From Candidatus Zymogenus saltonus (GTDB lineage Bacteria > Desulfobacterota > Zymogenia > Zymogenales > Zymogenaceae): DNA of 64,000 nucleotides. How positions within the stretch are numbered: position 1 is the first letter of the stretch; every line of letters begins with the position of its first letter. Shown here piece by piece: positions 15,269 through 28,606 of the stretch. The stretch is taken from assembly GCA_016929395.1 (NCBI GenBank), contig JAFGIX010000085.1:1-64000 (forward strand), given 5' to 3'. The notes beneath the pieces were generated by a model. It worked only from the letters and a program-made list of their open reading frames with translations, was not told the DNA's origin and did not search any database. The position numbers and the translations under genes are program-made.

Positions 15269-15755
15269 AGATCTTAAGGCTCTTTTCGCTTCTTATTAGG
15301 CCAATCAGCGCAGATATAAAAATAAAGTGTCTTACATTTTAGCATAGATTTCAGGTAGAAAAACCTTAAAAAGCGTGTTATAATTACAATTAAATACCTA
15401 TTTAACGAATTATGATGTATAATTATTATATTATATTAATATGATATTATATACTATCGTATATTTTTGTATTAAACACCTTATTTAGCGTCGTACTGTC
15501 AAAATCGTATATGCTTTATTTGACAACATTGATTATACCCAAATAAAGTCTTTATGATGATTCTAAAATTACTTTAACGAAATTATAAAATACTAAGATT
15601 CCGTAATATACAATTTATAAAATATTCTCAATATCATAAATGTATATTTTAGATAGTCTATGTTAAGGCTATATTTTTACAAAAAAAGTCACATTAAAAA
15701 CCTTATTCCTTGACTTGATAATATTTACAGATTATAGTTATTCTATATTGGAACA
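15269..15755. other. Very AT-rich intergenic region
   Basis: Almost 490 bases with long runs of A and T (for example around 15411-15470 and 15590-15650) separate the PHP gene and the amino-sugar cluster. No open frame, RNA gene or long repeat is apparent. A probable promoter for the cluster lies at its right end. The rest could hold upstream activator sites or bind a nucleoid protein such as H-NS-like factors; this is inferred from composition only. Confidence 0.6.
15710..15738 (+). promoter_or_regulatory. Promoter of amino-sugar cluster
   Basis: TTGACT (15710-15715) and TATAGT (15733-15738) are separated by exactly 17 bases. Transcription would begin near 15745, about 10 nt before the ATG of the acetyltransferase-like gene, so the leader is very short. 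Confidence 0.55.
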
Positions 15756-16565
15756 ATGATGCGCAAAAAGGAAATAGGAAAGGAGGAGATAAAAGAAGGG
15801 CTTAAGACCCTTGGTATTGGTCTCGGGGACAAATTTTTAGTTCACTCCAGTCTCAAGATGATGGGATGGGTTAATGGGGGCGCAAACGCTGTAATCGATG
15901 CCTTGATGTCGCTCGTAACGTCTTCCGGGACGATTATGATGCCGGCTTTTACTTTTCCTCCAGTAGAGCTTTTCGATCCCAAATCCACCCCCACTACCCT
16001 CGGGGCAATAGCCGAAACTTTTAGAAAACACGAAGATGTAGTAAGGAGCCTCCATCCATCTCACTCGGTGGCCGTATGGGGAAAAGACAGCGAAAAATAC
16101 GCCGACCTCCATCTTGATTCCACGGCCTTGGGAATCGGCTCTCCCGTTCACGGATTGATAGAGGCTCATGGGGATATATTACTTCTGGGAGTGGGACACT
16201 GGGCGAATTCTGCTATTCACGTCGCCGAGGCGATAGCAAAAGTCCCATATCTCAATATCCCTTACAGTGAAGACTATGCAAAACCCCTGGCCGTAAAGAC
16301 GGCCGATGGTTCGATAAAAGAGGTTCCGACCAAGGAAAATCCTGGATGCAGTATCAATTTCGTCGCGGCAGAAACCCCTTTAAGAAATGCCGGCCTTCTG
16401 AAGTATCAGCGAGTTGGTGATGCGCTTTTTCAGAGGGTCGACGGGAAAGGACTGATAAGCCTGTTGAAAAATATATTGATCAAAAATCCGGACGCTCTTC
16501 TTTGTTCTTGGAACTTATGCCCCTTTTGCCACAGGGCAAGGGCGGTAATTTCTTCAACAAAATGA
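15756..16565 (+). CDS. AAC(3)-family N-acetyltransferase-like protein
   Basis: A 269-residue member of the aminoglycoside 3-N-acetyltransferase (YokD-like) family. Family signatures include FLVHSSLKMMGWVNGG near residue 28, GTIMMPAFTF near 58 and SLHPSHSVAVWG at 98-109, with the expected His100/His103. Members use acetyl-CoA to acetylate an amino group. Here it is the first gene of an amino-sugar catabolic cluster, so its natural substrate is more likely an amino sugar or a cell-envelope amine than a drug. The C-terminus has a compact cysteine group (Cys250, Cys255, Cys258) that could bind metal. The gene is followed after 19 nt by the SIS gene. Confidence 0.8.
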   Translation: MMRKKEIGKEEIKEGLKTLGIGLGDKFLVHSSLKMMGWVNGGANAVIDALMSLVTSSGTIMMPAFTFPPVELFDPKSTPTTLGAIAETFRKHEDVVRSLHPSHSVAVWGKDSEKYADLHLDSTALGIGSPVHGLIEAHGDILLLGVGHWANSAIHVAEAIAKVPYLNIPYSEDYAKPLAVKTADGSIKEVPTKENPGCSINFVAAETPLRNAGLLKYQRVGDALFQRVDGKGLISLLKNILIKNPDALLCSWNLCPFCHRARAVISSTK

Positions 16566-16584
16566 TTTAGAGGAACAGAAATTT

Positions 16585-17319
16585 ATGTGGGAAAAATTTT
16601 TCGATCACATTTCGGACATGATTACCGAAGTAAAAAACTCGCAGGGTAACAACTTGAAAGCATCTGCAGAACTCGTTGCAAAGGCTATCGAATCCGGAGG
16701 TATCATTCATACATTCGGAACTGGTCATTCATCGCTGTTGGCTCAGGAGATATTTTGCAGAGCGGGTGGAATAGTCCCCGTTAATGCAATTCTCGATCCT
16801 TGCTTTCTACTCTCCTACGGGGCGATCAGGAGCTCATCGATGGAGAGGACCCCGGGCATTGCCAGCTCCGCGATAGAGGGCCATACAATAAGGTCCGGAG
16901 ACGTGGCGATAATCATCTCAAACTCGGGGAGAAATGTAGCCCCGGTAGAAATGGCCCTCAAACTAAAAAAGATGGGTCTGTCCATAATAGCCCTCACAAG
17001 CCTTAAACATTCAGAAAGCGTTAAGTCCGGTCATCCTTCCGAGAAAAAGCTTTACGATATAGCCGATGTCGTGTTGGACAATTTGGGCCCAAGGGGCGAT
17101 GCCTCTTTTCAGGTGCCGGGAGTAAAGGCCCCAATGGGAGCTACTTCCGGAATTATAGGCTCTATACTCCTTCATTCCATAATCATAGAAGCGGTATCGA
17201 TCCTCGCCTCAAAGGGAAAGGCCCCCGCGGTATTTCAGAGCATTAACGCAGAGACCGATCAATTGGAAGAGCTTACAAGAGAGTTTATGAAATACAAGGG
17301 GAGAATCAAGCATTTCTGA
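16585..17319 (+). CDS. UPF0309-type SIS domain sugar-phosphate protein
   Basis: A 244-residue single SIS-domain protein of the UPF0309 (COG4821) group. The phosphosugar-binding motifs HTFGTGHSSLLAQEIFCRAGG near residue 42 and IIISNSGRNVAPVE near 113 are clear. SIS proteins bind or isomerise phosphorylated sugars, and this group is often encoded with N-acetylglucosamine genes, as here. It could act as an isomerase, an etherase or a ligand sensor; it lacks a DNA-binding domain, so direct repression is unlikely. An AGAGGAAC ribosome site precedes the ATG. Its last bases overlap a possible upstream extension of the next gene. Confidence 0.85.
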   Translation: MWEKFFDHISDMITEVKNSQGNNLKASAELVAKAIESGGIIHTFGTGHSSLLAQEIFCRAGGIVPVNAILDPCFLLSYGAIRSSSMERTPGIASSAIEGHTIRSGDVAIIISNSGRNVAPVEMALKLKKMGLSIIALTSLKHSESVKSGHPSEKKLYDIADVVLDNLGPRGDASFQVPGVKAPMGATSGIIGSILLHSIIIEAVSILASKGKAPAVFQSINAETDQLEELTREFMKYKGRIKHF

Positions 17320-17404
17320 TCCGATCCAAATTGAAAGCGATACTACGGTCATTTCGATCCTTCCGGTCCCCGAAACAACGGAAGGTCTTGGCGTAAGGTT
17401 TGTA

Positions 17405-18205
17405 TTGGGAGGTTGGATAGCCGACTTTCATGACAAAACCGGTTACTCGTTCATTTCCGACGATTTTCCGAAAGACAGGGTTGTGGGCTTTGGATTCCCG
17501 GACGAGTTTATAAGCCCGATTATTCCCCTCGATGATCCCGGAAAAGCCGATAAGGGGGTTAAAATCGGCGTCGGAAGGATCAACCTCTTAAGGCTCGGAA
17601 GCTACAGGTTTACCGAGGAGCCGGGACTGATCGAGATTTTCCCCTGGAACATAGAAAAGAAAAAAGACGCCGTAAAATTCATCCAGGAGTTCATAGAGAA
17701 CGAAATAGGTTACAGGCTCGAAAAGAGGATCGAGCTCCATTCAGGAAGGGAGGCCGGCTTCACAATCTCGTTTGAGCTCAAAAACCTCTCCAGAAAACGG
17801 ACCATCCAGACCCTCTGGTATTACCACCCCTTTGTGGCGCCGGGGGGCATGGGCGCCGACTGCTATATAGTCCTGCCGGAAACACTGAGACCCGCCTTTG
17901 ACTTCATCAAACCCCTTACAGAAGACGACTCCGGCAGACTTCGCCTCCCCGACGACTTCAGCGAGATAAAGACACAGCTCATGGAGTTTACCCCTGCCGA
18001 CATGGGTCATCTGAACAGGTTTTCTGTGGGGAACGTCAACCACAGAGCGGCCCTCCTTATCGAGGGGGACTTTCCCCTCGCCTTTCTCAGAATCTGGTAC
18101 GAGCCGAGGACCTACTCCCCGGAGCCCTTCTACTATATAACACTTCCCGCCGGCGATAAAATATCATGGTCGATAAAAAACAGTATCATTGAATCCAAAT
18201 TATAG
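17405..18205 (+). CDS. Aldose 1-epimerase-like protein, start uncertain
   Basis: At least 266 residues of a beta-rich protein that resembles the galactose mutarotase fold (LGGWIADFHDK, GLIEIFPW, GFTISFELKNLS, WYYHPFVAPG, and a late FLRIWYEP). It may convert sugar anomers or act as a related sugar-binding lyase. The first standard start codon is TTG at 17405 with AAGG six bases upstream. The frame stays open back to 17291, and the translated stretch (DTTVISILPVPETTEGLGVRF) looks like the missing first beta strands. An ATT codon at 17312, eight bases after a GGGGAG site at 17298-17303, could be the real, non-AUG start. No ATG, GTG or TTG is available there. Confidence 0.6.
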   Translation: MGGWIADFHDKTGYSFISDDFPKDRVVGFGFPDEFISPIIPLDDPGKADKGVKIGVGRINLLRLGSYRFTEEPGLIEIFPWNIEKKKDAVKFIQEFIENEIGYRLEKRIELHSGREAGFTISFELKNLSRKRTIQTLWYYHPFVAPGGMGADCYIVLPETLRPAFDFIKPLTEDDSGRLRLPDDFSEIKTQLMEFTPADMGHLNRFSVGNVNHRAALLIEGDFPLAFLRIWYEPRTYSPEPFYYITLPAGDKISWSIKNSIIESKL

Positions 18206-18252
18206 TTATAATATGCGAATTGTAACCCTATATATTTTTAGAGGGGAAGATT

Positions 18253-19599
18253 ATGGCAGAGAAGTTTACAAAGAAGCTCACAAACAAGGAGATATTTTTC
18301 TATAACTGGGGCTCCATAAGCCTCAACTTCATTGAAGGAGTGCTTTTTGCGTGGATCATGTTTTTCTACGCCCCAACCGATCCCAAACCGGGCCAGATCG
18401 TCTATATACCGATCGTATTAACTGGGATCATCCTGGCGCTGGGAAGGGTTTTCGACGCCATCACCGATCCCCTTATCGGAAATTTCTCCGACAATCTGAA
18501 GAGCAGGTGGGGGCGGAGAAAGCCCTTTATCGTCTTCGGAACACCCTTGATGATCATCGCCTTTATATTTTTCTGGACACCGCCCGTGGTCGGGGAGTCG
18601 TTGTATAACGTCCTCTATCTGGGAGTTCTGTTCTTGATCTACTTCCTCTTCTACACCGCCATAGGAATCCCCTACGACGCCCTCCTTGCCGAGATAGCCC
18701 TGACCTCGGAGGACAGGGTAAAGCTAACTTCCTGGAAGCTCGTCTACGCAATTATCGGCTTTATGCTGGTCGCCGCCGCGGCTCCTATGTACCAACACTG
18801 GGGGCCCTTCAAGATGGGCCTTGTCGTGGGGGCCATCGGCTTTGTTACCATGTATATGTGTCTTCCGGGTATTAAGGAGCTTCCCGCGGAGTTTTCCGGC
18901 GCCGATAAAAAGATCGGCCTCTGGGACTCTTTAAAGGCCACGTTCGGCAACAGGCAGTTTCTCTTCTTCGGGATAGCCATCATCCTCCTCTACATGTGTT
19001 ATATGGTTTTAATTCCGGTCGTCCCATATTTGAACGATGTAATTTTGGATAAGGAGCCGGAATTCGTCATGTACCTTCAGATAGAGTTCATACTCTTTAT
19101 GGTGGCGTCGGTTCCCCTCTGGATGTGGCTCAGCAAGAAATATGCGAAAAGAACTCTTCTCCGTGTCGTGTCTTTATTGTTGGCTCTCTTTTTCCCGCTG
19201 TTTTTCTTTGTGGGAATGATTCCCGGGGTGCCGGTTATCGTCCAGCCCTTTATAGTGTTTCCGTTTGTGAGCATACCCCTCGGGGGATTTATGATCCTCG
19301 TCTACGCAATGATGGGGGACGTCGTTGACTATGACCAGATGCTCACGGGAAAGAGGCGTGAATCGATGTACTACGGCGTCTTCGGCTTCTCCCGAAAGGT
19401 GGGATTCGCCTTTGCGGTTTTTTCATTCCCGATCCTCTTTGATATTTTCGGAGCAGTGCCCGGAAATGATTTGGGGATCCGGCTGGTCTGGATTATGCTG
19501 AGTGTAGTCTCCCTTATAGGCTTCTTTGTGCTTTTCGGCTACAAGCTTGGCGACTCCCCCGAAGAGACGAGGGAGATCATGGGTATTAAGCAGAGGTGA
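18253..19599 (+). CDS. GPH-family sugar:cation symporter
   Basis: A 448-residue inner-membrane transporter of the glycoside-pentoside-hexuronide family (MelB-like) in the major facilitator superfamily. About 12 membrane helices can be traced. The hallmark loop FDAITDPLIGNFSDN followed by KSRWGRRKPF lies at residues 70-95, with the paired Asp residues that bind the coupling cation in MelB. The second half has a matching MMGDVVDYDQ...GKRRESMYYG loop. Given the neighbours, the cargo is probably an amino sugar, N-acetylated sugar or small glycoside. A GAGGGGAAG ribosome site precedes the ATG; the stop is 6 nt from the kinase start. Confidence 0.9.
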   Translation: MAEKFTKKLTNKEIFFYNWGSISLNFIEGVLFAWIMFFYAPTDPKPGQIVYIPIVLTGIILALGRVFDAITDPLIGNFSDNLKSRWGRRKPFIVFGTPLMIIAFIFFWTPPVVGESLYNVLYLGVLFLIYFLFYTAIGIPYDALLAEIALTSEDRVKLTSWKLVYAIIGFMLVAAAAPMYQHWGPFKMGLVVGAIGFVTMYMCLPGIKELPAEFSGADKKIGLWDSLKATFGNRQFLFFGIAIILLYMCYMVLIPVVPYLNDVILDKEPEFVMYLQIEFILFMVASVPLWMWLSKKYAKRTLLRVVSLLLALFFPLFFFVGMIPGVPVIVQPFIVFPFVSIPLGGFMILVYAMMGDVVDYDQMLTGKRRESMYYGVFGFSRKVGFAFAVFSFPILFDIFGAVPGNDLGIRLVWIMLSVVSLIGFFVLFGYKLGDSPEETREIMGIKQR

Positions 19600-19605
19600 T
19601 CTAAC

Positions 19606-20670
19606 GTGAAGAGTGGAGGCGTTATCATCTCCATCGACGGCGGCGGGACCAAAACCACCGCCGTCGCCGTAACCGGTGAGGGAAAGGTCGTCGGGGTCGG
19701 AATGTCCGGCCCTGGAAACCACGTCCTCTCCCCCATAGAGGTAGTGAGAGAATCGTTGAGGGAGGCGGTGACCCTTGCCGTCAAGAGCGCCGGCTTGGTG
19801 GAGAGCGACCTCCTGATCATATGCGGAGACACGGCGGGAATCGGCCACCAGCGGGAGGGCGCCCAGTACGTGGAGGCTATCCTGTCCGAGGTCTTTACAG
19901 ACACCGAGGTCTATCTCGTTGGGGACATGGTGGCCGGGTTCTACGGGGCAGTGCCGAAAGATCGAAGGAGCGGAGTTGTGGCCACCGCCGGCACCGGCTC
20001 CTCCATCTACGGCCTCAACGAGGGGGGCGAGGGATTTCAGGTCGGCGGTTGGGGACATATCATCGGGGATGAGGGGAGCGCCTACGACATCGCCGTCTCG
20101 GGGATGAGGGCCGCCTCGAAGGCCTTCGACGGAAGGGGCAGGCCCACGAGTCTAACATCGGCGTTCCCGAAGTATTTCGGCGTCGACGACATGTTCCTGG
20201 TTCAGATACCGATATACCTCGGCGAGATCATGACGAGGGAGGAGATAGATAAGGGAGACACGGACGTCGAGTACAGCTCGGTCAGCTCCGGGCTCTCCAG
20301 AGAGAAGATCGCCGGGGCCGCCGTGGCGGTTGCCGAAGAGGCAAAAAAAGGCGACAAAGTGGCGATAGAAGTCATGAAGGGGGCTGCCGAGGAGCTCGCC
20401 CTGGGCGTCGTCACGGTGGCGAAAAAGCTCTCCATTTCTAAGGACGATCTCGTTGTCTCATACGCCGGAAGCGTCTTTAACGCGGGAAAGATAATCTTAG
20501 AGCCTTTCTCAAACTACATTCTGAAGGATTATCCGGAAGCGAAGGTAATCGAGCCTTTTCTTCCCACTGTGGGCGGGGGAATCAGGGTAGCCTTTACGAG
20601 GCTCGGCATAGATTTCGCAAGCGCCGCCGACAGGATCAAAGAGGAACTGAAGGCCCGGGGTGTCGCCTGA
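19606..20670 (+). CDS. BadF/BcrA-type ATPase, probable N-acetylglucosamine kinase
   Basis: A 354-residue member of the ASKHA kinase fold, BadF/BadG/BcrA/BcrD group, which includes the N-acetylglucosamine kinases. The phosphate-1 motif IDGGGTKTTAVAV is at residues 9-21, the phosphate-2 region ATAGTGSSIYG near 127, and the adenosine motif SYAGSVFNAG near 285. The BcrA-type iron-sulfur cysteines are not evident, which favours a sugar kinase over a benzoyl-CoA reductase activator. It would phosphorylate the imported sugar at C6 for the NagA deacetylase encoded downstream. The start is a GTG preceded by AGAGGTGAT. Its TGA overlaps the ATG of the next gene. Confidence 0.85.
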   Translation: MKSGGVIISIDGGGTKTTAVAVTGEGKVVGVGMSGPGNHVLSPIEVVRESLREAVTLAVKSAGLVESDLLIICGDTAGIGHQREGAQYVEAILSEVFTDTEVYLVGDMVAGFYGAVPKDRRSGVVATAGTGSSIYGLNEGGEGFQVGGWGHIIGDEGSAYDIAVSGMRAASKAFDGRGRPTSLTSAFPKYFGVDDMFLVQIPIYLGEIMTREEIDKGDTDVEYSSVSSGLSREKIAGAAVAVAEEAKKGDKVAIEVMKGAAEELALGVVTVAKKLSISKDDLVVSYAGSVFNAGKIILEPFSNYILKDYPEAKVIEPFLPTVGGGIRVAFTRLGIDFASAADRIKEELKARGVA

Positions 20671-21980
20671 TGGAGGAGAACTTATTAAGGGCATCGGCGG
20701 CTGTCGTTGACATTACCCCCCCGATAGGCTTTCCCCTGGGGGGCTACATAATGCGAAACGGGGTCTCGACCGGTGTCCTCGATCCAATCCAGGCAAGAAT
20801 AGGATACATCACGGACGGCAAGTCTTCAATCGTAATGGTCGGCTTCGACTGGATTTACATACTCGGCGGATGGGGCCGCTCCCTGAGGAAGGGGATCGGA
20901 GAAGCCCTCGGGATAGATTCCAAAAATGTAATTTTAGCGGCAACCCACACCCACTCCGGCCCCGGGATATTCGGTTCATTCCACACGGTAGAAGACGGCG
21001 GCAGCGGCGAGTACCTGAAGGAGGTCCCGGAGAGACTCATTAATGCCGCGGTCATGCTCTGCTCCGCTTCCAGATTCGTCACCATAAAAAAGGGGAAGAT
21101 CAGGATTGAGAGCATCGGGGCAAACAGGAACGACCCGGACGGTTTTTTTGACGACACCATGGTGGGCCTCCACTTTTTTGATGAGGGGGACGACCTGGTT
21201 ATGCGGCTTCTGAACTACGGCTGTCACCCCACCGCTTTAGGCGCCGATAACCTCCTCTTCTCGGGCGACTTTGTCGGCTACGGCCTTGACCTCCTCGACG
21301 GCAAATGGGGGGGAGCCTCTATCTTCATGAACGGGGCCGCCGGTGACGTCAGCACCAGGTTCACGAGACGGGGCAGGACGTCGGAGGAGCGAAAGAGGCT
21401 CGGCGACATTTTTTTTGAGGCCGCTAATTTCATGCAGAAGACCGCTGTACCCCACACCGGGAATGAAATAAAAATAAGGTCCGAGGCGGTCCCCGTCGCC
21501 TATCGGGAGCTGCCCGCCGTCGAACAATCGGAAGCGATCATCGATGAGATAAAAGGCAGGCTCGACGGCGGAAGAAAGGCGGGGCTTTCCAAAGAGGAAA
21601 TCAGAAAATTGGAGTCCCTGAAGGAGGGGGCGCTGGCAAGGCTCCTGATCTCGAAGCTGGGGGGAATCGAGGCCGTTATCGGCAAAAGGAAGATGGAAAC
21701 CGAGGTCGAACTTTTGATGATCGGGGAGATGGGAATCCTCTTTATACCGGGCGAGGTCATGAGCAAGACGGCGATGAAGCTGAAGACTTTGTCGGAGTTT
21801 CCACTTATGGTGGTGGGATACGCCAACGATTACCTGGGCTACCTCGTCGAGAAAGACGAAAGCAGTGAGGGAGATTACGAGTCGTTCGTAACATTTCTCT
21901 CAGACGGATCGATAAAAGAGATAATCAATACGGCCGAGAAACTTATAGGAGAACAAGCCATTGAAAGACGTTTTGATTAA
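20670..21980 (+). CDS. Neutral ceramidase-like amidohydrolase
   Basis: A 436-residue protein matching the N-terminal catalytic domain of neutral/alkaline ceramidases. Likely zinc ligands lie in THTHSGPG (residues 92-99) and GCHPT (His186), and the nucleophile-like serine of GDVS is Ser228. It has no signal peptide and no C-terminal immunoglobulin-like domain, so it is a shorter cytoplasmic form. Such proteins are common in bacterial carbohydrate clusters, where they probably cleave a different amide, perhaps an N-acyl amino sugar. The ATG overlaps the kinase stop (TGATG), and its 3' end overlaps nagA by 20 nt, so it is firmly part of the operon. Confidence 0.8.
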   Translation: MEENLLRASAAVVDITPPIGFPLGGYIMRNGVSTGVLDPIQARIGYITDGKSSIVMVGFDWIYILGGWGRSLRKGIGEALGIDSKNVILAATHTHSGPGIFGSFHTVEDGGSGEYLKEVPERLINAAVMLCSASRFVTIKKGKIRIESIGANRNDPDGFFDDTMVGLHFFDEGDDLVMRLLNYGCHPTALGADNLLFSGDFVGYGLDLLDGKWGGASIFMNGAAGDVSTRFTRRGRTSEERKRLGDIFFEAANFMQKTAVPHTGNEIKIRSEAVPVAYRELPAVEQSEAIIDEIKGRLDGGRKAGLSKEEIRKLESLKEGALARLLISKLGGIEAVIGKRKMETEVELLMIGEMGILFIPGEVMSKTAMKLKTLSEFPLMVVGYANDYLGYLVEKDESSEGDYESFVTFLSDGSIKEIINTAEKLIGEQAIERRFD

Positions 21981-23121
21981 AGGCGGTCGCCTGATCAGGG
22001 AAAACGAGATCCTCGATGACATGGACGTCCTTCTGTCAGGGGGAAAGATCGCGTCCGTGGACAGGGCGCTTCACGACAAGGCCGAGGGTGCGGAGATCGT
22101 AGACGCCGGAGGACTGTATATCTCCCCCGGCTTTCTTGACATCCACATCCACGGGGCGATGGGGGAGATGTGCGAGATCGCAACCCTCGAGGGAATGAAA
22201 AAAATATCCCTGACCCTCGCCAAATACGGGACTACGGCCTTCCTTCCCACCCTAGGCGCCTCCCCCCACGAGGATACCGTCCGGCTCCTCAAGATCATCG
22301 CCGGAGCAAAGGATAAGGTAGAGGGGGCCGAGATTGTCGGGATAAACATGGAGGGGCCTTACCTCAACCCGAAGTGGGCGGGCGCCCAGAGGGCAGACGC
22401 CATAAGGAACTACAGCAAGGAGGAGCTGAAGGAGTATATTAAAGTGACCGACGGCCTCCTTACCGTCATGGGGCTCGCCCCGGAGGTGGAGGGGGGAATG
22501 GAACTCGTCTCCGACCTGAAGGAGGCGGGTATTATACCCTGCGCCGTCCACACGGACGCAACGTACGACCAAACGACAGAAGCGATGAAGCACGGCCTCA
22601 AGCTCACCGGACATACCTTTAACGCCATGAGGCCTATCCACCATAGAGAGCCGGGAATAATAGTTGCGGCGATGCTTACAGACGATCTTTTTTCGGAGTA
22701 TATCGCGGACGGCTTCCACACCTACACCCCCATAATCGAGATGGCCTACAGACTCAAGGGTGAGAAGAGACTGGTTTTCGTCTCCGACTCCGTGGGCGGG
22801 ATGGGAATACCGGACGGCTACTACGAGTTCTTCGGGACACAGTGCAAGGTCTCAAACGGGAGGATCACCATCGGGGACTCCGACATACTGGCGGGGAGCG
22901 CAAGCCCCCTCCTCTTCGGCGTAAAGAACCTCCATAAGACCTCGGAGATCATCCCCCTTCCTCACATAATACGGATGGCGACACTGACACCGGCCGAAGT
23001 CATAGGCGTTGAAGACCGCCTGGGCAGCATCGATGTCGGGAAGGACGCCAGCGTCATACTGTTGAATGACAAGCTCGACGTCGTCAGGGTATGGGTCAGT
23101 GGTAAGGAGATTAGATATTAG
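21961..23121 (+). CDS. nagA: N-acetylglucosamine-6-phosphate deacetylase
   Basis: A 386-residue amidohydrolase that removes acetate from N-acetylglucosamine 6-phosphate. The metal and substrate motifs are present: DIHIHG (His62, His64), INMEGPYLNPKWAGAQ with Glu131, HTDATYDQTTEA, GHTFNAM, and the catalytic aspartate in FVSDSVGGMG near residue 275. Length is normal. The start is a TTG at 21961 with AGGAGAA seven bases upstream, lying inside the end of the ceramidase-like gene. It is the last gene of the cluster. The product, glucosamine 6-phosphate, would be used by the deaminase-like gene at 35606, which is not in this operon. Confidence 0.9.
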   Translation: MKDVLIKGGRLIRENEILDDMDVLLSGGKIASVDRALHDKAEGAEIVDAGGLYISPGFLDIHIHGAMGEMCEIATLEGMKKISLTLAKYGTTAFLPTLGASPHEDTVRLLKIIAGAKDKVEGAEIVGINMEGPYLNPKWAGAQRADAIRNYSKEELKEYIKVTDGLLTVMGLAPEVEGGMELVSDLKEAGIIPCAVHTDATYDQTTEAMKHGLKLTGHTFNAMRPIHHREPGIIVAAMLTDDLFSEYIADGFHTYTPIIEMAYRLKGEKRLVFVSDSVGGMGIPDGYYEFFGTQCKVSNGRITIGDSDILAGSASPLLFGVKNLHKTSEIIPLPHIIRMATLTPAEVIGVEDRLGSIDVGKDASVILLNDKLDVVRVWVSGKEIRY

Positions 23122-23606: not shown

Positions 23607-24767
23607 TCAGTAACTTATCTCCATGTCCGACAGGGGATAGGCCATGCATGAGTGGATGTAATCGTACCACCTGTCCGACTCCCTTATGGGAACCCTGTCC
23701 GGCATGAACGCCTTGCCGACGTGGACCTTCGTACGGCAGTAGCTGCACTCCCCGCTCCTGCAGAGGTAGGGGGACACCAGCCCCGCCCTTTCGAGGCTGC
23801 TAAGGATCGGCTCTCCTGCCTTGGCGTCTATCGTCTTCTCGCCGTTGACTTTTATCTTGAAAACCTTATCCGGAGATACATCCGAGGGCCAGCCCGGCTC
23901 CTTTGTGATGTCCGCCGGCGGGCCGTACGCCTCCTTCTTGATCCTTCTCCCCGGGACCTTCAGCTTTTCAAGCTCGGGCATCACGAAGGAGTACATGAGG
24001 TTCGGCCCGCACATGTAGAAGGTCTTCCCCTTTACGCTGCCCAAAAAGTCCTTTATTACATCGGCCGTGATAAATCCAGTAACACCCTTATAGCCGGCCG
24101 GCGGCTCCGAGACAACGAGCTGGTAGTTGATATTCTTGTGCTTTTCCGATATAGCCTTGAACTCGTCGCCGAAGATCACATCGTCAGTGGTGCGGCTTCC
24201 GTAGATCAACCAGATATTGAAGTCGAGTCCCCGGTCGATCACCTCCCTGATGATGCTCCTAAACGGGGTGATCCCGGAGCCGCCGCCGATGAAGACGAGG
24301 TCTTTTCCGTCGGTCAAGGGCTCGTGATAGAAGGAGCCGGACGGCGCCGATATCTGAAACTCGTCCCCCACCTTTACGTCGTCCATAAGGTAGTGGGAGA
24401 CGAAGCCCTCCTCCATCCTCCTTACCGTGACGTCGTAGTAGCCCCTGGTGTGGGGCGGAGACGAGATCGTGAAGGAGCGCCCCGTCAAGACCTTTCCGAT
24501 CTTTACCTTGAGGCTCACGTACTGGCCGGCCCGAAACGGCGGAAGGTAGCCGTCCTTCGGCGACAGTCTTATTGTCTTGGTGGATGGGGTCTCTTCAATA
24601 ATATCGACCGCCTTTACGTCTATCGACTTCGGGTGGAGGAGGCTAACGAAGCTCTCCACGAAATCCTTGGGGAGGGTGAGATCACCGAAGACCCTTTTCA
24701 GTATCTCCCTCTCCTCTATGGCCTCCTTGAATCCCTCGACGTTACCTAAAAACTCCTGAATATTCAT
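23607..24767 (-). CDS. FAD-dependent oxidoreductase with C-terminal 2Fe-2S ferredoxin
   Basis: A 386-residue electron-transfer protein of the ferredoxin-NADP reductase type. After an N-terminal helical extension of about 50 residues, an FAD domain shows RSFTISSPPHTRG, and an NAD(P)H domain shows FIGGGSGITPFRSIIRE and FYMCGPNLMY. The last 85 residues form a plant-type 2Fe-2S domain (CRSGECSYC plus a late Cys in HSCMAYP). It resembles PaaE and Hcr reductases and would carry electrons between NAD(P)H and a partner enzyme, perhaps the FAD enzyme encoded 13 nt upstream. The N-terminal helical part is unusual for this group. Confidence 0.88.
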   Translation of the reverse strand: MNIQEFLGNVEGFKEAIEEREILKRVFGDLTLPKDFVESFVSLLHPKSIDVKAVDIIEETPSTKTIRLSPKDGYLPPFRAGQYVSLKVKIGKVLTGRSFTISSPPHTRGYYDVTVRRMEEGFVSHYLMDDVKVGDEFQISAPSGSFYHEPLTDGKDLVFIGGGSGITPFRSIIREVIDRGLDFNIWLIYGSRTTDDVIFGDEFKAISEKHKNINYQLVVSEPPAGYKGVTGFITADVIKDFLGSVKGKTFYMCGPNLMYSFVMPELEKLKVPGRRIKKEAYGPPADITKEPGWPSDVSPDKVFKIKVNGEKTIDAKAGEPILSSLERAGLVSPYLCRSGECSYCRTKVHVGKAFMPDRVPIRESDRWYDYIHSCMAYPLSDMEISY

Positions 24768-24780
24768 TTTGGTCTCCCCC

Positions 24781-26289
24781 CTATTTCATTAATTTGCCAA
24801 GGGCCCTGCCGCCGGCGATGGAGCCGGCCGCGATCGACGGCTGAAATCCGCCTCCCGGAATCGTCCAGGCGCCCGCAAAGAACAGGCCGTCTACCGGGGC
24901 CTTGTGCTGAAGCCTCAGAAGACCGGAATCGGACAGATACTGGTCGGTGCCGTAGATGGCCCCTCCCGGGTTTCCGGTGTAGCGCATGTTGGTCACCGGG
25001 GTCGCCACCTCGATCACCTCGATATGCTCCCTCAATCCGGGGAAGTATTTCTCCCCCACCTCGAGCATACCCTCTGCGTATCGGTTCTTCACGTCCACGT
25101 ATCTGTCCGGGGGTATCATGTACCAGGGACGGGCGTAGGCGGTCGCTGTCATCACGATCACCGATGTCCCCGGGGGCGAGAAGAGCGGGTCGGTCACGTT
25201 GTAGCAGGTAAAGAGTATCCCCTCCGGCGGCTTCATGGTGAAGCCCCTCTCCCACGCCTCCTCTATGCCGCTGCCCATGTTGAGGAAGTTCTCGTGGACC
25301 GTAGCCCCTATCGTCTCCGACGGGCAGTCGAGCCCGATGTAGAGGTTCACGGTGGAAAAGCCGATTATCTTGCTGTTCATCTCCCTCTGGAACTCCCTCG
25401 GCGTGTTCTCCGGTCCCACAAGGTTTATCATGGTGGAGAGGGGGTTGGCATTGGACACCACTACCGTGGCCGTCACCTCCTCGTCCTCGTCGGTGACAAC
25501 GCCGGTCACCTTCCCGTCCTTCACGTTTATCTTCTTGACCCCGGTGTTGAACTTTACGACGCCGCCGCTCTCGAAGAAGGTGTCCATGAAGGCGTTGGAG
25601 AGCGCCTGGCACCTCCCCCTTATGTGGTGGGGCGGGTTTGTGAGAAATGCGTCCCATATGGCGGACATGAGCTGAAACGGGACCTTGGAAGGGGGAAGGC
25701 CGGCGTATCCCCAGTAGGGGGATAGTACGCTCTTCAACCTCTCGTCCTTTACAAAGGTATCGAGGACCTCCCCGTAGGTCTTCATCCCGTTTTTTACGAA
25801 TGTAGGGAATTTATCCACGGAGAAGTCGTCCGAGCGGGCAGCCGCGGAGTTGATAATTCCCTTGTAGTCCTTCATGAGGTTTATCGTCGTATCGAAGAAG
25901 TTCTCGATCCCCTCGGCCTCACCAGGGAATTCCTCCATCAACATCTCCTCGCACTCGTCCCGGTTCGCCGGCAGGGTCATGTCGATGTTGTCGTCCACCA
26001 CCCTGTAGAGATCCGGCATCCGGATAAACTCGACCTTGTCGGCCACCCCGATGGCGGTCAGGTACTGGTAGAGGTCTCCCGGCACCCCTTCCGGGCTCTT
26101 CACCCCGGAAAGCTCGTGGAGGGCCACGTCGAATTCGAACCTGCCCCGGCAAAACGAGGTGGCGTACCCGCCGGGAATGTTGTGGCGCTCCAGTAGGAGT
26201 ACGCTTTTCCCCTGCTTTGCGATCAACGTGGCGGCGGACATCCCTCCCAGCCCCGCCCCGATAACGACCGCATCGTATTTCTTCGCCAT
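24781..26289 (-). CDS. Phytoene desaturase-like FAD oxidoreductase
   Basis: A flavoprotein of about 502 residues in the CrtI/phytoene dehydrogenase-like group. The N-terminal dinucleotide fold is AVVIGAGLGGMSAATLIAKQG, and the C-terminal FAD signature is LFFAGAWTIPGGGFQPSIAAGSI, of which GAWTIPGGG is diagnostic. Members desaturate or isomerise polyprenyl chains or saturate retinoid-like double bonds; the true substrate is unknown because no carotenoid genes are nearby. I chose the ATG at 26289, since AAGGAG lies seven bases upstream; an ATG at 26307 would place that ribosome site inside the coding sequence. It is followed by the ferredoxin-fused reductase, a plausible electron partner. Confidence 0.85.
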   Translation of the reverse strand: MAKKYDAVVIGAGLGGMSAATLIAKQGKSVLLLERHNIPGGYATSFCRGRFEFDVALHELSGVKSPEGVPGDLYQYLTAIGVADKVEFIRMPDLYRVVDDNIDMTLPANRDECEEMLMEEFPGEAEGIENFFDTTINLMKDYKGIINSAAARSDDFSVDKFPTFVKNGMKTYGEVLDTFVKDERLKSVLSPYWGYAGLPPSKVPFQLMSAIWDAFLTNPPHHIRGRCQALSNAFMDTFFESGGVVKFNTGVKKINVKDGKVTGVVTDEDEEVTATVVVSNANPLSTMINLVGPENTPREFQREMNSKIIGFSTVNLYIGLDCPSETIGATVHENFLNMGSGIEEAWERGFTMKPPEGILFTCYNVTDPLFSPPGTSVIVMTATAYARPWYMIPPDRYVDVKNRYAEGMLEVGEKYFPGLREHIEVIEVATPVTNMRYTGNPGGAIYGTDQYLSDSGLLRLQHKAPVDGLFFAGAWTIPGGGFQPSIAAGSIAGGRALGKLMK

Positions 26290-26428
26290 GATATTACTCC
26301 TTGTCATTGCAGTAGCAATTTTTAAATTGGACCATCGGCCCAGTCTATTTAAGATTTACAATTACCGATTATTATGGATCTCCCTTGGCCTTTGGTCTTT
26401 GATATCCCGACTCCCACCACAATTTTTA

Positions 26429-26484
26429 CCCCCCTCCCCCCAATCCCCCAAAGATGATTTTGTCCCCCCCTTCCTTCCCCCCCC
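26429..26484 (-). other. G-tract element upstream of FAD oxidoreductase
   Basis: Five C-runs of 5-8 bases occur on the plus strand (26429-26434, 26436-26441, 26445-26449, 26464-26470, 26477-26484), giving G-runs on the coding strand of the genes. The pair 26464-26484 alone can supply four G-triplets. It lies in the 270-nt gap between the old yellow enzyme gene and the FAD enzyme gene, the longest gap in this cluster. Confidence 0.4.
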
Positions 26485-26560
26485 TCCTGAACATCAAATG
26501 ACCACCCCCTTTAATGCCCCACCCCCCCTAAATGTCCAAATCCCGCTTCAGCCGGAAGCC

Positions 26561-28606
26561 CTACAGATTGTACGCCTCCTCGAATCCCTCCTGAACCGCC
26601 TCGGTGATCTTCCTCGGCCCTTTTGCATCACCTATCGTTATCACCTTGATGTCATTTCCGGATACCGCGTCCATAAGCTTCCTCACCGACTTCGCCCCCA
26701 CCGCAGTAATCACGGTGTCCGCCGGTATCGAGTACTGTCTGTTATTCGACTCCACAATAACCGCGTCGTCGGTGATCTCGACGAGCTTCGTCTTGGGCTT
26801 GAGGTTTACGCCCAGGAGCTTCAGGCTCTTCATGAGGGACCACCTCGATGTCTTCCCCACGTTTTCGGCCAGCCTCTCGACCATGTCGATTACGGTTATC
26901 GTCTTTCCGGTCTTGTACAAAAGCTCCCTTGCAAACTCGATCTCCTCGGCGTTGTGGTACAGGATAAACCTCATGGTGTCGGCGTCCGGGGTTCCCATAG
27001 CGGCGATGTAGTGGGCGGTCTCACAACCCGTAGCGCTCCCCCCGATTATCACGATATTGTCCCCGATCTCCGTCACCCTGTCCATCAGGACGTCCCAGGC
27101 GCTTATAACGTGGGGCTTGTTTATTCCGGGGACCTTGATCTCTATGGGCTCGGCGCCGGTGGCGACGACCAGTACGTCCGGGTTCGACTTTTTCACCATC
27201 TCAGGGGTAAGCTCCGTTTCGAGCCTGACCTCAACGCCGAACTTCTTCATCCTGTTCTCGAAGCTCTCTATGATGTTCATAAGCTCTCTCTTCCCCGGCG
27301 GTGACATGGCGAGGTTTATCTGCCCGCCGAGTCTCGATTCCTTCTCGTAGAGCGTGACGTCGTGTCCCAACAATCCCGCCGTGACTGCAAACTCCATCCC
27401 TGCTGGGCCTCCCCCGGCGATCAAGACCTTCAGCTTCTTTTTCGCCTTCCCCTCTTTTTTCGGGAACTCGAGCTCCCTTCCCGCCCTCGGGTTGAGGATG
27501 CAGGAGACGGACCTACCCTCGAATACCGCGTTGAAGCACCCCTGGTTGCAGGCTATGCAGGGGACGATCTCGTCGTACCTCCCCTCCTTTACCTTGTTGG
27601 GAAGCTCCGGGTCGCATATCAGGGGCCTCCCCCAGCAGACGAGGTCGCAGGCCTTCGACCTGATCGCCCTCTCGGCCACCTCAGGGTTGCCGAGGCGGTT
27701 TGACGCGAAGACCGGGATGTTGACCTTCTCCTTTATCCCTCTGGCGAGGTAGAGGTACACCCCCTGCGGGACGTTGGTGGTAAGCTGGGGGATGTAGGTC
27801 TCGTGCCAGCCGCCGGTCACGTTTATGGCGTCGGCCCCCGCTTTTTCGCACTCCGCGGCGAAGATGGCCGACTCCTTGTTTGTGTGCCCGCCCTCCATGA
27901 AGTCGTTTCCGGCAATCCTGATTCCCACTGCGACCGTATCTCCTACCGCCTCCTTTATCCCCTTGACTATCTCTATCCCGAAGCGCATCCTGTTCTCGAT
28001 CGGGCCGCCGTACTCGTCTGTGCGTTTGTTGGTCAGAGGCGAGAGGAACTGGCTTATGAGGTATCCGGTGCACCCCACCGGCTCCACGTAGTCGAACCCC
28101 GCCTCCACTGCCCGCTTGGCGGCGTCAACGAAGGCTCTCTGGACCTCGGCGATATCGTCTTTTGTCATCTCTCTCGGGGTCTCACCGGTTAGCTTTCCGG
28201 GTATTGCGGATGGTGCGACAGGAGTATTTCCCGTGAAGTAGGAAAAGGCGTTCCTCCCCATGTGGAAGAGCTGCGTTCCCGCCTTTACGCCGGTGTCCCT
28301 CTTTATCTCCTCTATGAAGCGGCTAAGCGCCTCGACGTTCCTGTCGTCGAAGAGCTCCGGCACGTAAGGGGCGGCTCCGACTCTGTCTATGGCTATCGGG
28401 CCGATCAGCATCAGCCCCACTCCTCCCTCGGCCCTCTCCCTGAAATATTCCTTGAAGCGGTCGGTGAAAGTATAATCGTCCGTATAGCCAAGCCCCATGG
28501 CCGGCATGACTATCCTGTTCTTTATCTCGATCGGGCCGACCTTGACCCTCTCGAAGAGCCTTACAATCTTGAAGTCGCCTCTCTTATAGGCTTTATCGAA
28601 AACCAA
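26561..28606 (-). CDS. Old yellow enzyme, 2,4-dienoyl-CoA reductase-type (FMN/4Fe-4S/FAD)
   Basis: A 681-residue flavoenzyme with the layout of 2,4-dienoyl-CoA reductase and related ene-reductases. Residues 1-345 form an FMN TIM barrel (KNRIVMPAMGLGY at the start, GTQLFHMGR, VGIRIAGNDF). A 4Fe-4S site follows with CIACNQGC and a further Cys in VSCILNP. From residue 385 a dinucleotide-binding domain (LIAGGGPAGMEFAV) binds FAD and a second (IVIIGGSATGCE) binds NAD(P)H. It would reduce an activated C=C bond, in line with the adjacent hydratase and thioesterase. The start is a TTG with AGGAGG eight bases upstream. Confidence 0.9.
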   Translation of the reverse strand: MVFDKAYKRGDFKIVRLFERVKVGPIEIKNRIVMPAMGLGYTDDYTFTDRFKEYFRERAEGGVGLMLIGPIAIDRVGAAPYVPELFDDRNVEALSRFIEEIKRDTGVKAGTQLFHMGRNAFSYFTGNTPVAPSAIPGKLTGETPREMTKDDIAEVQRAFVDAAKRAVEAGFDYVEPVGCTGYLISQFLSPLTNKRTDEYGGPIENRMRFGIEIVKGIKEAVGDTVAVGIRIAGNDFMEGGHTNKESAIFAAECEKAGADAINVTGGWHETYIPQLTTNVPQGVYLYLARGIKEKVNIPVFASNRLGNPEVAERAIRSKACDLVCWGRPLICDPELPNKVKEGRYDEIVPCIACNQGCFNAVFEGRSVSCILNPRAGRELEFPKKEGKAKKKLKVLIAGGGPAGMEFAVTAGLLGHDVTLYEKESRLGGQINLAMSPPGKRELMNIIESFENRMKKFGVEVRLETELTPEMVKKSNPDVLVVATGAEPIEIKVPGINKPHVISAWDVLMDRVTEIGDNIVIIGGSATGCETAHYIAAMGTPDADTMRFILYHNAEEIEFARELLYKTGKTITVIDMVERLAENVGKTSRWSLMKSLKLLGVNLKPKTKLVEITDDAVIVESNNRQYSIPADTVITAVGAKSVRKLMDAVSGNDIKVITIGDAKGPRKITEAVQEGFEEAYNL

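Follow-up and report, generated by a model that had tools for sequence, protein, structure and literature searches.

A gene cluster of Candidatus Zymogenus saltonus joining NagA to a NagS-like SIS protein, a ceramidase-like hydrolase and an AAC(3)-like acyltransferase: a possible salvage route for a modified N-acyl hexosamine

Introduction

In Streptomyces, N-acetylglucosamine-6-phosphate (GlcNAc-6P) is dehydrated by the SIS protein NagS to 6P-chromogen I, which is deacetylated by NagA (PMC12680351). Residues H53, R64, E94 and D179 are essential in NagS, and its orthologues, sharing at least 58.7% identity, are found in Streptomycetaceae, encoded beside dmdR1; homologues outside this family (26-36% identity) were inactive or had negligible activity on GlcNAc-6P and failed in complementation (PMC12680351). 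The UPF0309/NagS family of SIS proteins is related to MurQ (PMC12680351). A second family of relevance here, AAC(3), is characterized by a catalytic His/Glu motif of the form T/S-x-hydrophobic-H-hydrophobic-A-E (PMC8956665). Here we describe a cluster of seven genes encoding relatives of both families, together with a NagA and a ceramidase-like hydrolase, which lies in the first 64,000 nucleotides (nt) of contig JAFGIX010000085.1 of Candidatus Zymogenus saltonus (Zymogenaceae, phylum Desulfobacterota), a stretch hereafter referred to as the window.

Literature searches on ceramidase/SIS/NagA operons, UPF0309 and Zymogenus returned nothing beyond the NagS paper (PMC12680351). We give about even chances to the reading that the cluster encodes a cytosolic salvage route for a modified N-acyl hexosamine other than free N-acetylglucosamine (GlcNAc). 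Its substrate, step order and reactions are what we infer from protein families, catalytic residues, gene linkage and the absence of NagB, MurQ and AnmK.

Results

To place the ceramidase-like gene, gene neighbourhoods outside Zymogenaceae were compared with the window. Plasmids of Martelella, Devosia, Nitratireductor, Ponticoccus and Microvirga carry, in this order, genes for a LacI regulator, a NagB-family protein, a SIS protein, a NagA-like protein, a ceramidase-like protein and an ABC transporter, an arrangement for which no paper was found. Homology of the SIS, NagA and ceramidase-like members to the window genes was confirmed by tblastn, and in two further Nitratireductor plasmids the match positions place the SIS and ceramidase-like genes ∼2-2.5 kb apart. 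Within the phylum, a genome of another family (G057) has SIS and NagA genes separated by 15 nt, with BadF and ceramidase-like genes 8-12 kb further, all within 14 kb. Because this SIS/NagA/ceramidase core recurs in alphaproteobacterial plasmids and in G057, the ceramidase-like gene belongs with nagA, and its presence in the amino-sugar unit is not accidental. A first-pass annotation of the same DNA had proposed this link, which is thus supported in operons of another phylum and extended to the SIS gene; the co-occurrence of ceramidase-like gene and nagA in other genomes, chosen beforehand as a check, proved to be conserved and the link was not refuted. The pairing of the AAC(3)-like gene with nagA, proposed alongside it, was encountered in Zymogenaceae only; every other nagA/SIS locus examined lacked the AAC(3)-like gene. 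Likewise, the AAC(3)-like, GPH and third genes accompany the core in Zymogenaceae only, and the AAC(3) link has been met in a single bacterial family so far.

Annotated SIS neighbourhoods, 16 in number and hand-picked rather than random, were also opened; a NagA-like gene lay within 7 kb in 9/16, a ceramidase-like gene in 5/16 and an AAC(3) gene in 0/16. In Planococcus and Priestia the SIS gene follows nagA-nagB-GntR, in Rhizobium sp. NLR16a it follows nagA, and in a second Martelella locus it lies near nagA. Across the phylum, five of the six genomes with the SIS gene also have a ceramidase-like gene (hypergeometric 1.5e-6), a signal driven by one family; without that family the count falls to 1/2 (p 0.085, not significant), and we gave the co-occurrence no weight. 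As separate observations, one locus (L100, G236) combines SIS and NagA-like genes with genes for a KDPG aldolase, a PfkB kinase, a LarA-like protein and a TRAP transporter, and in a Listeria record (L054) the UPF0309 SIS gene stands last in an operon for a phosphotransferase system (PTS), phosphotriesterase-like, creatininase-like and KDGP-aldolase proteins, which is a different pathway for the UPF0309 family.

The ceramidase-like protein scored 46.9 bits against PF04734 (Ceramidase_alk; cut-off 32), and the profile of its family matched the neutral ceramidases 2zws/4wgk over the catalytic domain only (E 1e-31); against NF041649, the full-length neutral-ceramidase equivalog, it reached 21.8 bits at a cut-off of 1200. 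Its residues H93, H186, E362 and Y391 correspond to H97/H204/E411/Y448 of neutral ceramidase. The zinc residues of the P. aeruginosa ceramidase are invariant across 13 short ceramidase-like proteins, and the catalytic serine (Ser228 in the window protein) is kept in Zymogenaceae and G057; the catalytic roles of these residues we take from general knowledge of neutral ceramidases. No hydrophobic leader was evident at the N-terminus. The predicted model is weak (predicted local distance difference test, pLDDT, 53), and a fold search with it returned neutral ceramidases as the sole significant matches. When contigs were scanned with a single ceramidase-like sequence, no relative turned up.

The NagA protein scored 304 bits against TIGR00221 over residues 4-382 (cut-off 225.65) and matched PDB 2vhl with E 3e-60. 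In alignment with 2vhl it carries the motifs DIHIHG, MEGPY, VHTDA, GHTFNAMRPIHHREPG and SDS, with the metal-binding motifs and the HREPG substrate motif in place. No NagB-family gene above cut-off was found in four Zymogenaceae genomes, two of them ∼99% complete (the window's own assembly comprises 3.76 Mb at 99.6% completeness), and G002 gave one weak sub-threshold match. MurQ, the anhydro-MurNAc (N-acetylmuramic acid) kinase AnmK and GH20 hexosaminidase were also sought in Zymogenaceae genomes and not found. Since no NagB was found, the standard Nag ending, with which the first-pass annotation had closed its route, is unavailable in these genomes, and glucosamine-6-phosphate made by NagA would not be deaminated by a known NagB. 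In view of this absence, glucosamine-6-phosphate probably enters UDP-GlcNAc and cell-wall synthesis; a deaminase role of the SIS protein itself is conceivable.

The SIS protein scored 138 bits against SIS_2 and 264.8 bits against PRK02947. Aligned to NagS (9eol), it keeps H53, S54, R64, S91, E94, S119, S121, D179 and N228, that is, every residue whose loss impaired or abolished NagS activity plus three phosphate serines. No regulator gene adjoins the window SIS gene, there is no dmdR1 linkage, and the host is not a streptomycete. An assignment of the protein as MurQ etherase was rejected: no protein of the genome reaches the TIGR00274 cut-off of 302 bits. The other SIS proteins found resemble, by size and domain count only, GlmS (two SIS domains), or are KdsD-sized or GmhA-sized.

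The kinase scored 131 bits against PF01869 (BcrAD_BadFG) and 79.9 bits against the NagK_SO3507 equivalog, below the cut-off of 370; its closest solved relative is the MurNAc/GlcNAc kinase MurK (8zo3, E 7e-34). It keeps the catalytic D107 and the GGWGH motif (GGWGH/GDEGS motif of BadF-type NagK/MurK). D107 is preceded by Gly106, a position mostly occupied by Asn in glucose-type and other sugar kinases and by Thr in Tannerella MurK; judged from sequence, this glycine may leave room near O3/O4. The GPH transporter scored 206 bits against PF13347 (MFS_2), above the Pfam threshold, and 187 bits against TIGR00792, under its cut-off of 231.35.

The AAC(3)-like protein scored 174 bits against Antibiotic_NAT (PF02522) and stayed below every AAC(3) equivalog cut-off, at best with 138 vs 420 bits. 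It keeps the His/Glu dyad as H155/E158 within SAIHVAE and carries a C-terminal C-x4-C-x2-C motif (positions 16503-16529). Among 396 genomes of the phylum, the Zymogenaceae proteins score 510-539 bits and those of any other genome at most 93. Haloarchaeal relatives (39-42% identity) are encoded amid aminotransferase, deacetylase and sulfatase genes. As a further observation, AAC(3)-like proteins with the C-x4-C-x2-C motif form a subfamily, which has members in Zymogenaceae, on haloarchaeal plasmids and in one further genome of the phylum (L055, L056, L057, L115). Two of the haloarchaeal plasmid loci (L055, L056) hold AAC(3)-like and ceramidase-like genes ∼10-12 kb apart, amid sulfatase, aminotransferase and PIG-L deacetylase genes; a role of these clusters in the use of a sulfated amino sugar or aminocyclitol is possible.

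The cluster occupies positions 15756-23121 of the + strand (Table 1), where seven co-directional genes are closely packed, with successive gaps of 19, about 4, 47 and 6 nt followed by overlaps of 1 nt (BadF/ceramidase-like) and 20 nt (ceramidase-like/NagA), in agreement with the seven same-strand genes and the overlap of the last three that had been noted before. Of the family names assigned earlier, six were borne out by Pfam or NCBIfam matches; the label 'epimerase-like' for the third protein was not, as no aldose or hexose-6-phosphate epimerase was matched in Pfam or PDB by the single sequence or by the family profile. The single promoter assumed earlier was not confirmed: a promoter-consensus match lies upstream of the cluster at 15710-15738, and it carries no weight as evidence because it falls in an AT-rich leader, with 15 such matches observed in the region vs 7.7 expected. 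An Rfam scan of the window and a defence-system search with four of the cluster proteins gave no match.

Table 1. Genes of the cluster, with positions in the window
Product	Position	Strand	Family or structural match
AAC(3)-like (Antibiotic_NAT) acyltransferase, 269 aa	15756..16565	+	PF02522
UPF0309 / NagS-like SIS phosphosugar protein, 244 aa	16585..17319	+	PRK02947; PDB 3cvj, 9eol (NagS)
Third protein, family-specific, no known family	17318..18205	+	relatives in three Zymogenaceae
GPH-type MFS sugar:cation symporter, 448 aa	18253..19599	+	PF13347
BadF-type amino-sugar kinase, 354 aa	19606..20670	+	PF01869; PDB 8zo3
Short neutral-ceramidase-like hydrolase, 436 aa	20670..21980	+	PF04734; profile match 2zws/4wgk
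NagA, N-acetylglucosamine-6-phosphate deacetylase, 386 aa, TTG start	21961..23121	+	TIGR00221; PDB 2vhl

All seven genes are present in identical order in G003 (L013) and G002 (L014, same locus as L021), that is, in two other Zymogenaceae genera, and G001 (L012) has the last six only, on an 8 kb contig cut inside the SIS gene. Identities to the window genes range from 44% (ceramidase-like) to 88% (SIS of G001, partial), and in G003 an opposite-strand metallophosphoesterase-like gene is placed between the kinase and ceramidase-like genes. Downstream of the cluster, beside nagA, a convergent redox trio is found on the - strand (23607-28606), named by sequence appearance as a 2Fe-2S ferredoxin reductase, a phytoene-desaturase-like flavin adenine dinucleotide (FAD) oxidoreductase and an old-yellow-enzyme-like reductase.

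The third protein matched nothing in Pfam or NCBIfam and nothing credible in PDB, either as single sequence or as family profile, and its predicted model is poor (pLDDT 36). Among the 396 genomes of the phylum it is restricted to four Zymogenaceae, with relatives of 55-68% identity in the three others, and a contig scan recovered relatives in Candidatus Zymogenus sp. and another Zymogenaceae bacterium. The first canonical start of its gene is TTG 17405. Since conserved sequence begins upstream of it, near 17324, and the relative in L013 has an ATG, the true start is uncertain; in the window and L012 alike, no usual start codon is present in the conserved 5' end (17318-17405), which may reflect a non-standard start or an assembly issue.

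Discussion

That the cluster is an amino-sugar unit, as the first-pass annotation had it, is supported, as is the linkage of the ceramidase-like gene to nagA and SIS. In the salvage route that we favour, the GPH symporter would take up the unphosphorylated sugar and the BadF kinase would transfer a phosphate onto O6. The NagS/MurQ-related SIS protein would act on the acylated 6-phosphate at C2/C3, by elimination, hydration or isomerisation, and NagA would take off the acetyl group. The ceramidase-fold protein may be a zinc amidase that cleaves an additional or atypical amide in this sugar. In Zymogenaceae, acetylation of an amine by the AAC(3)-like enzyme would enable the downstream steps; the glucosamine-6-phosphate product, NagB being absent, would most likely be directed into UDP-GlcNAc synthesis. 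That the distant NagS homologues tested had negligible or no activity on GlcNAc-6P argues that the SIS proteins of these loci use another acylated sugar phosphate. Going by sequence, the substrate might bear a bulky 3-O substituent, like muramic acid; a 3-O-substituted hexosamine of this kind would be in keeping with both the MurK-like kinase and the MurQ-related SIS protein.

Several observations weigh against this route. The redox trio beside nagA is also conserved in Zymogenaceae (partly cut in G001, with the middle gene duplicated in G003), so that gene order within the family partly reflects general synteny and is weaker evidence; two upstream flanking genes tested in Zymogenaceae were not conserved. 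The alphaproteobacterial operons lack a BadF kinase, two of the phosphate-binding serines are missing from their SIS proteins, and Asn takes the place of the catalytic serine in the remaining aligned ceramidase-like sequences, theirs included; the chemistry there may therefore differ. The distant NagS homologues tested did not dehydrate GlcNAc-6P (PMC12680351), and the third protein has no assigned role in the proposed route.

A more specific and distinctly speculative version, which we consider improbable, is that SIS, NagA and short ceramidase form a pathway, so far undescribed, for amino sugars that are lactams or resemble muramic acid. Here the ceramidase fold would act as a cytosolic amino-sugar amidase or lactamase and expose a free amine for re-acetylation by the AAC(3) fold, the MurK-like kinase and MurQ-like SIS lyase would free the 3-O group, and NagA would yield glucosamine-6-phosphate for the cell wall.

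According to the first-pass annotation, the cluster serves acyl exchange, one of several schemes compatible with the data. An N-acyl hexosamine would lose a non-acetyl acyl group (fatty, glycolyl or other) through the ceramidase-like enzyme, and its amine would be re-acetylated by the AAC(3)-like enzyme before the kinase and NagA act. Both enzymes retain their catalytic residues, and in the three Zymogenaceae loci that include both cluster ends their genes sit together in a compact unit. We nevertheless find this unlikely, given that elsewhere the ceramidase-like gene accompanies SIS and NagA without any AAC(3), and that adding an acetyl group for NagA to remove would be wasteful unless the kinase or SIS step requires it.

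We attach little credence to ordinary GlcNAc uptake and deacetylation by the GPH symporter, BadF kinase and NagA, in which the genes for the SIS, ceramidase-like and AAC(3)-like proteins would be passengers. NagA does exceed its curated cut-off and the kinase is of the NagK/MurK kind, but the supposed passengers SIS and ceramidase-like recur with nagA across phyla, and NagB is missing. Equally doubtful is a checkpoint of the Streptomyces type, in which SIS would turn GlcNAc-6P into 6P-chromogen I for deacetylation by NagA (PMC12680351): the conserved H53, R64, E94, D179 and phosphate serines and the shared cluster of SIS and NagA are consistent with it, but homologues at 26-36% identity outside Streptomycetaceae showed negligible or no activity on GlcNAc-6P and did not complement (PMC12680351), dmdR1 linkage is lacking and the remaining genes are left unexplained. 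Detoxification or use of an aminoglycoside or aminocyclitol with the AAC(3)-like enzyme as key step, which the Antibiotic_NAT family, the intact dyad and the setting of the haloarchaeal relatives (39-42% identity) amid aminotransferase, deacetylase and sulfatase genes would allow, is very improbable for a gene embedded in a kinase/NagA unit whose product falls so far under every AAC(3) equivalog cut-off (138 vs 420 bits).

The usual annotation of short bacterial ceramidase-like proteins follows the analogy with lipid enzymes; their recurrence beside SIS and NagA in two phyla points toward amino sugars instead. Moreover, the cluster shows an AAC(3)-fold enzyme in a native context other than resistance, and it supplies a partner set for UPF0309, whose tested members outside Streptomycetaceae are barely or not active on GlcNAc-6P (PMC12680351).

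Compared with described systems, the AAC(3)-like protein shares the Antibiotic_NAT domain and the dyad with AAC(3) aminoglycoside acetyltransferases but falls short of their equivalog cut-offs. Neutral ceramidases (PaCD 2zws, human 4wgk) have the catalytic domain, zinc tetrad and serine in common with the window hydrolase, which, at 436 aa compared to 646-688 aa, matches them over the catalytic domain only and has no leader. With the Streptomyces NagS/NagA pathway the cluster shares the SIS residues and the NagA partner, but it lies outside Streptomycetaceae, without dmdR1, at a distance at which homologues are inactive. MurNAc use through MurK, MurQ and NagA is approached by the kinase, closest to MurK, and by the MurQ-related SIS family (PMC12680351), whereas the cluster SIS protein is UPF0309 rather than MurQ and no AnmK was found. 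NagE-NagA-NagB-(SIS) and nagK-nagA clusters for GlcNAc likewise have NagA and an amino-sugar kinase or PTS, and in some Bacillota a UPF0309 SIS gene; the window cluster is without NagB, uses a GPH transporter and adds the ceramidase-like, AAC(3)-like and family-specific proteins. The alphaproteobacterial LacI/NagB-like/SIS/NagA/ceramidase-like/ABC/UgpC operon differs by its ABC transporter, its NagB-family gene, the absence of BadF kinase and AAC(3) and its substituted active-site residues, and has the module of SIS, NagA and short ceramidase in common with the window cluster.

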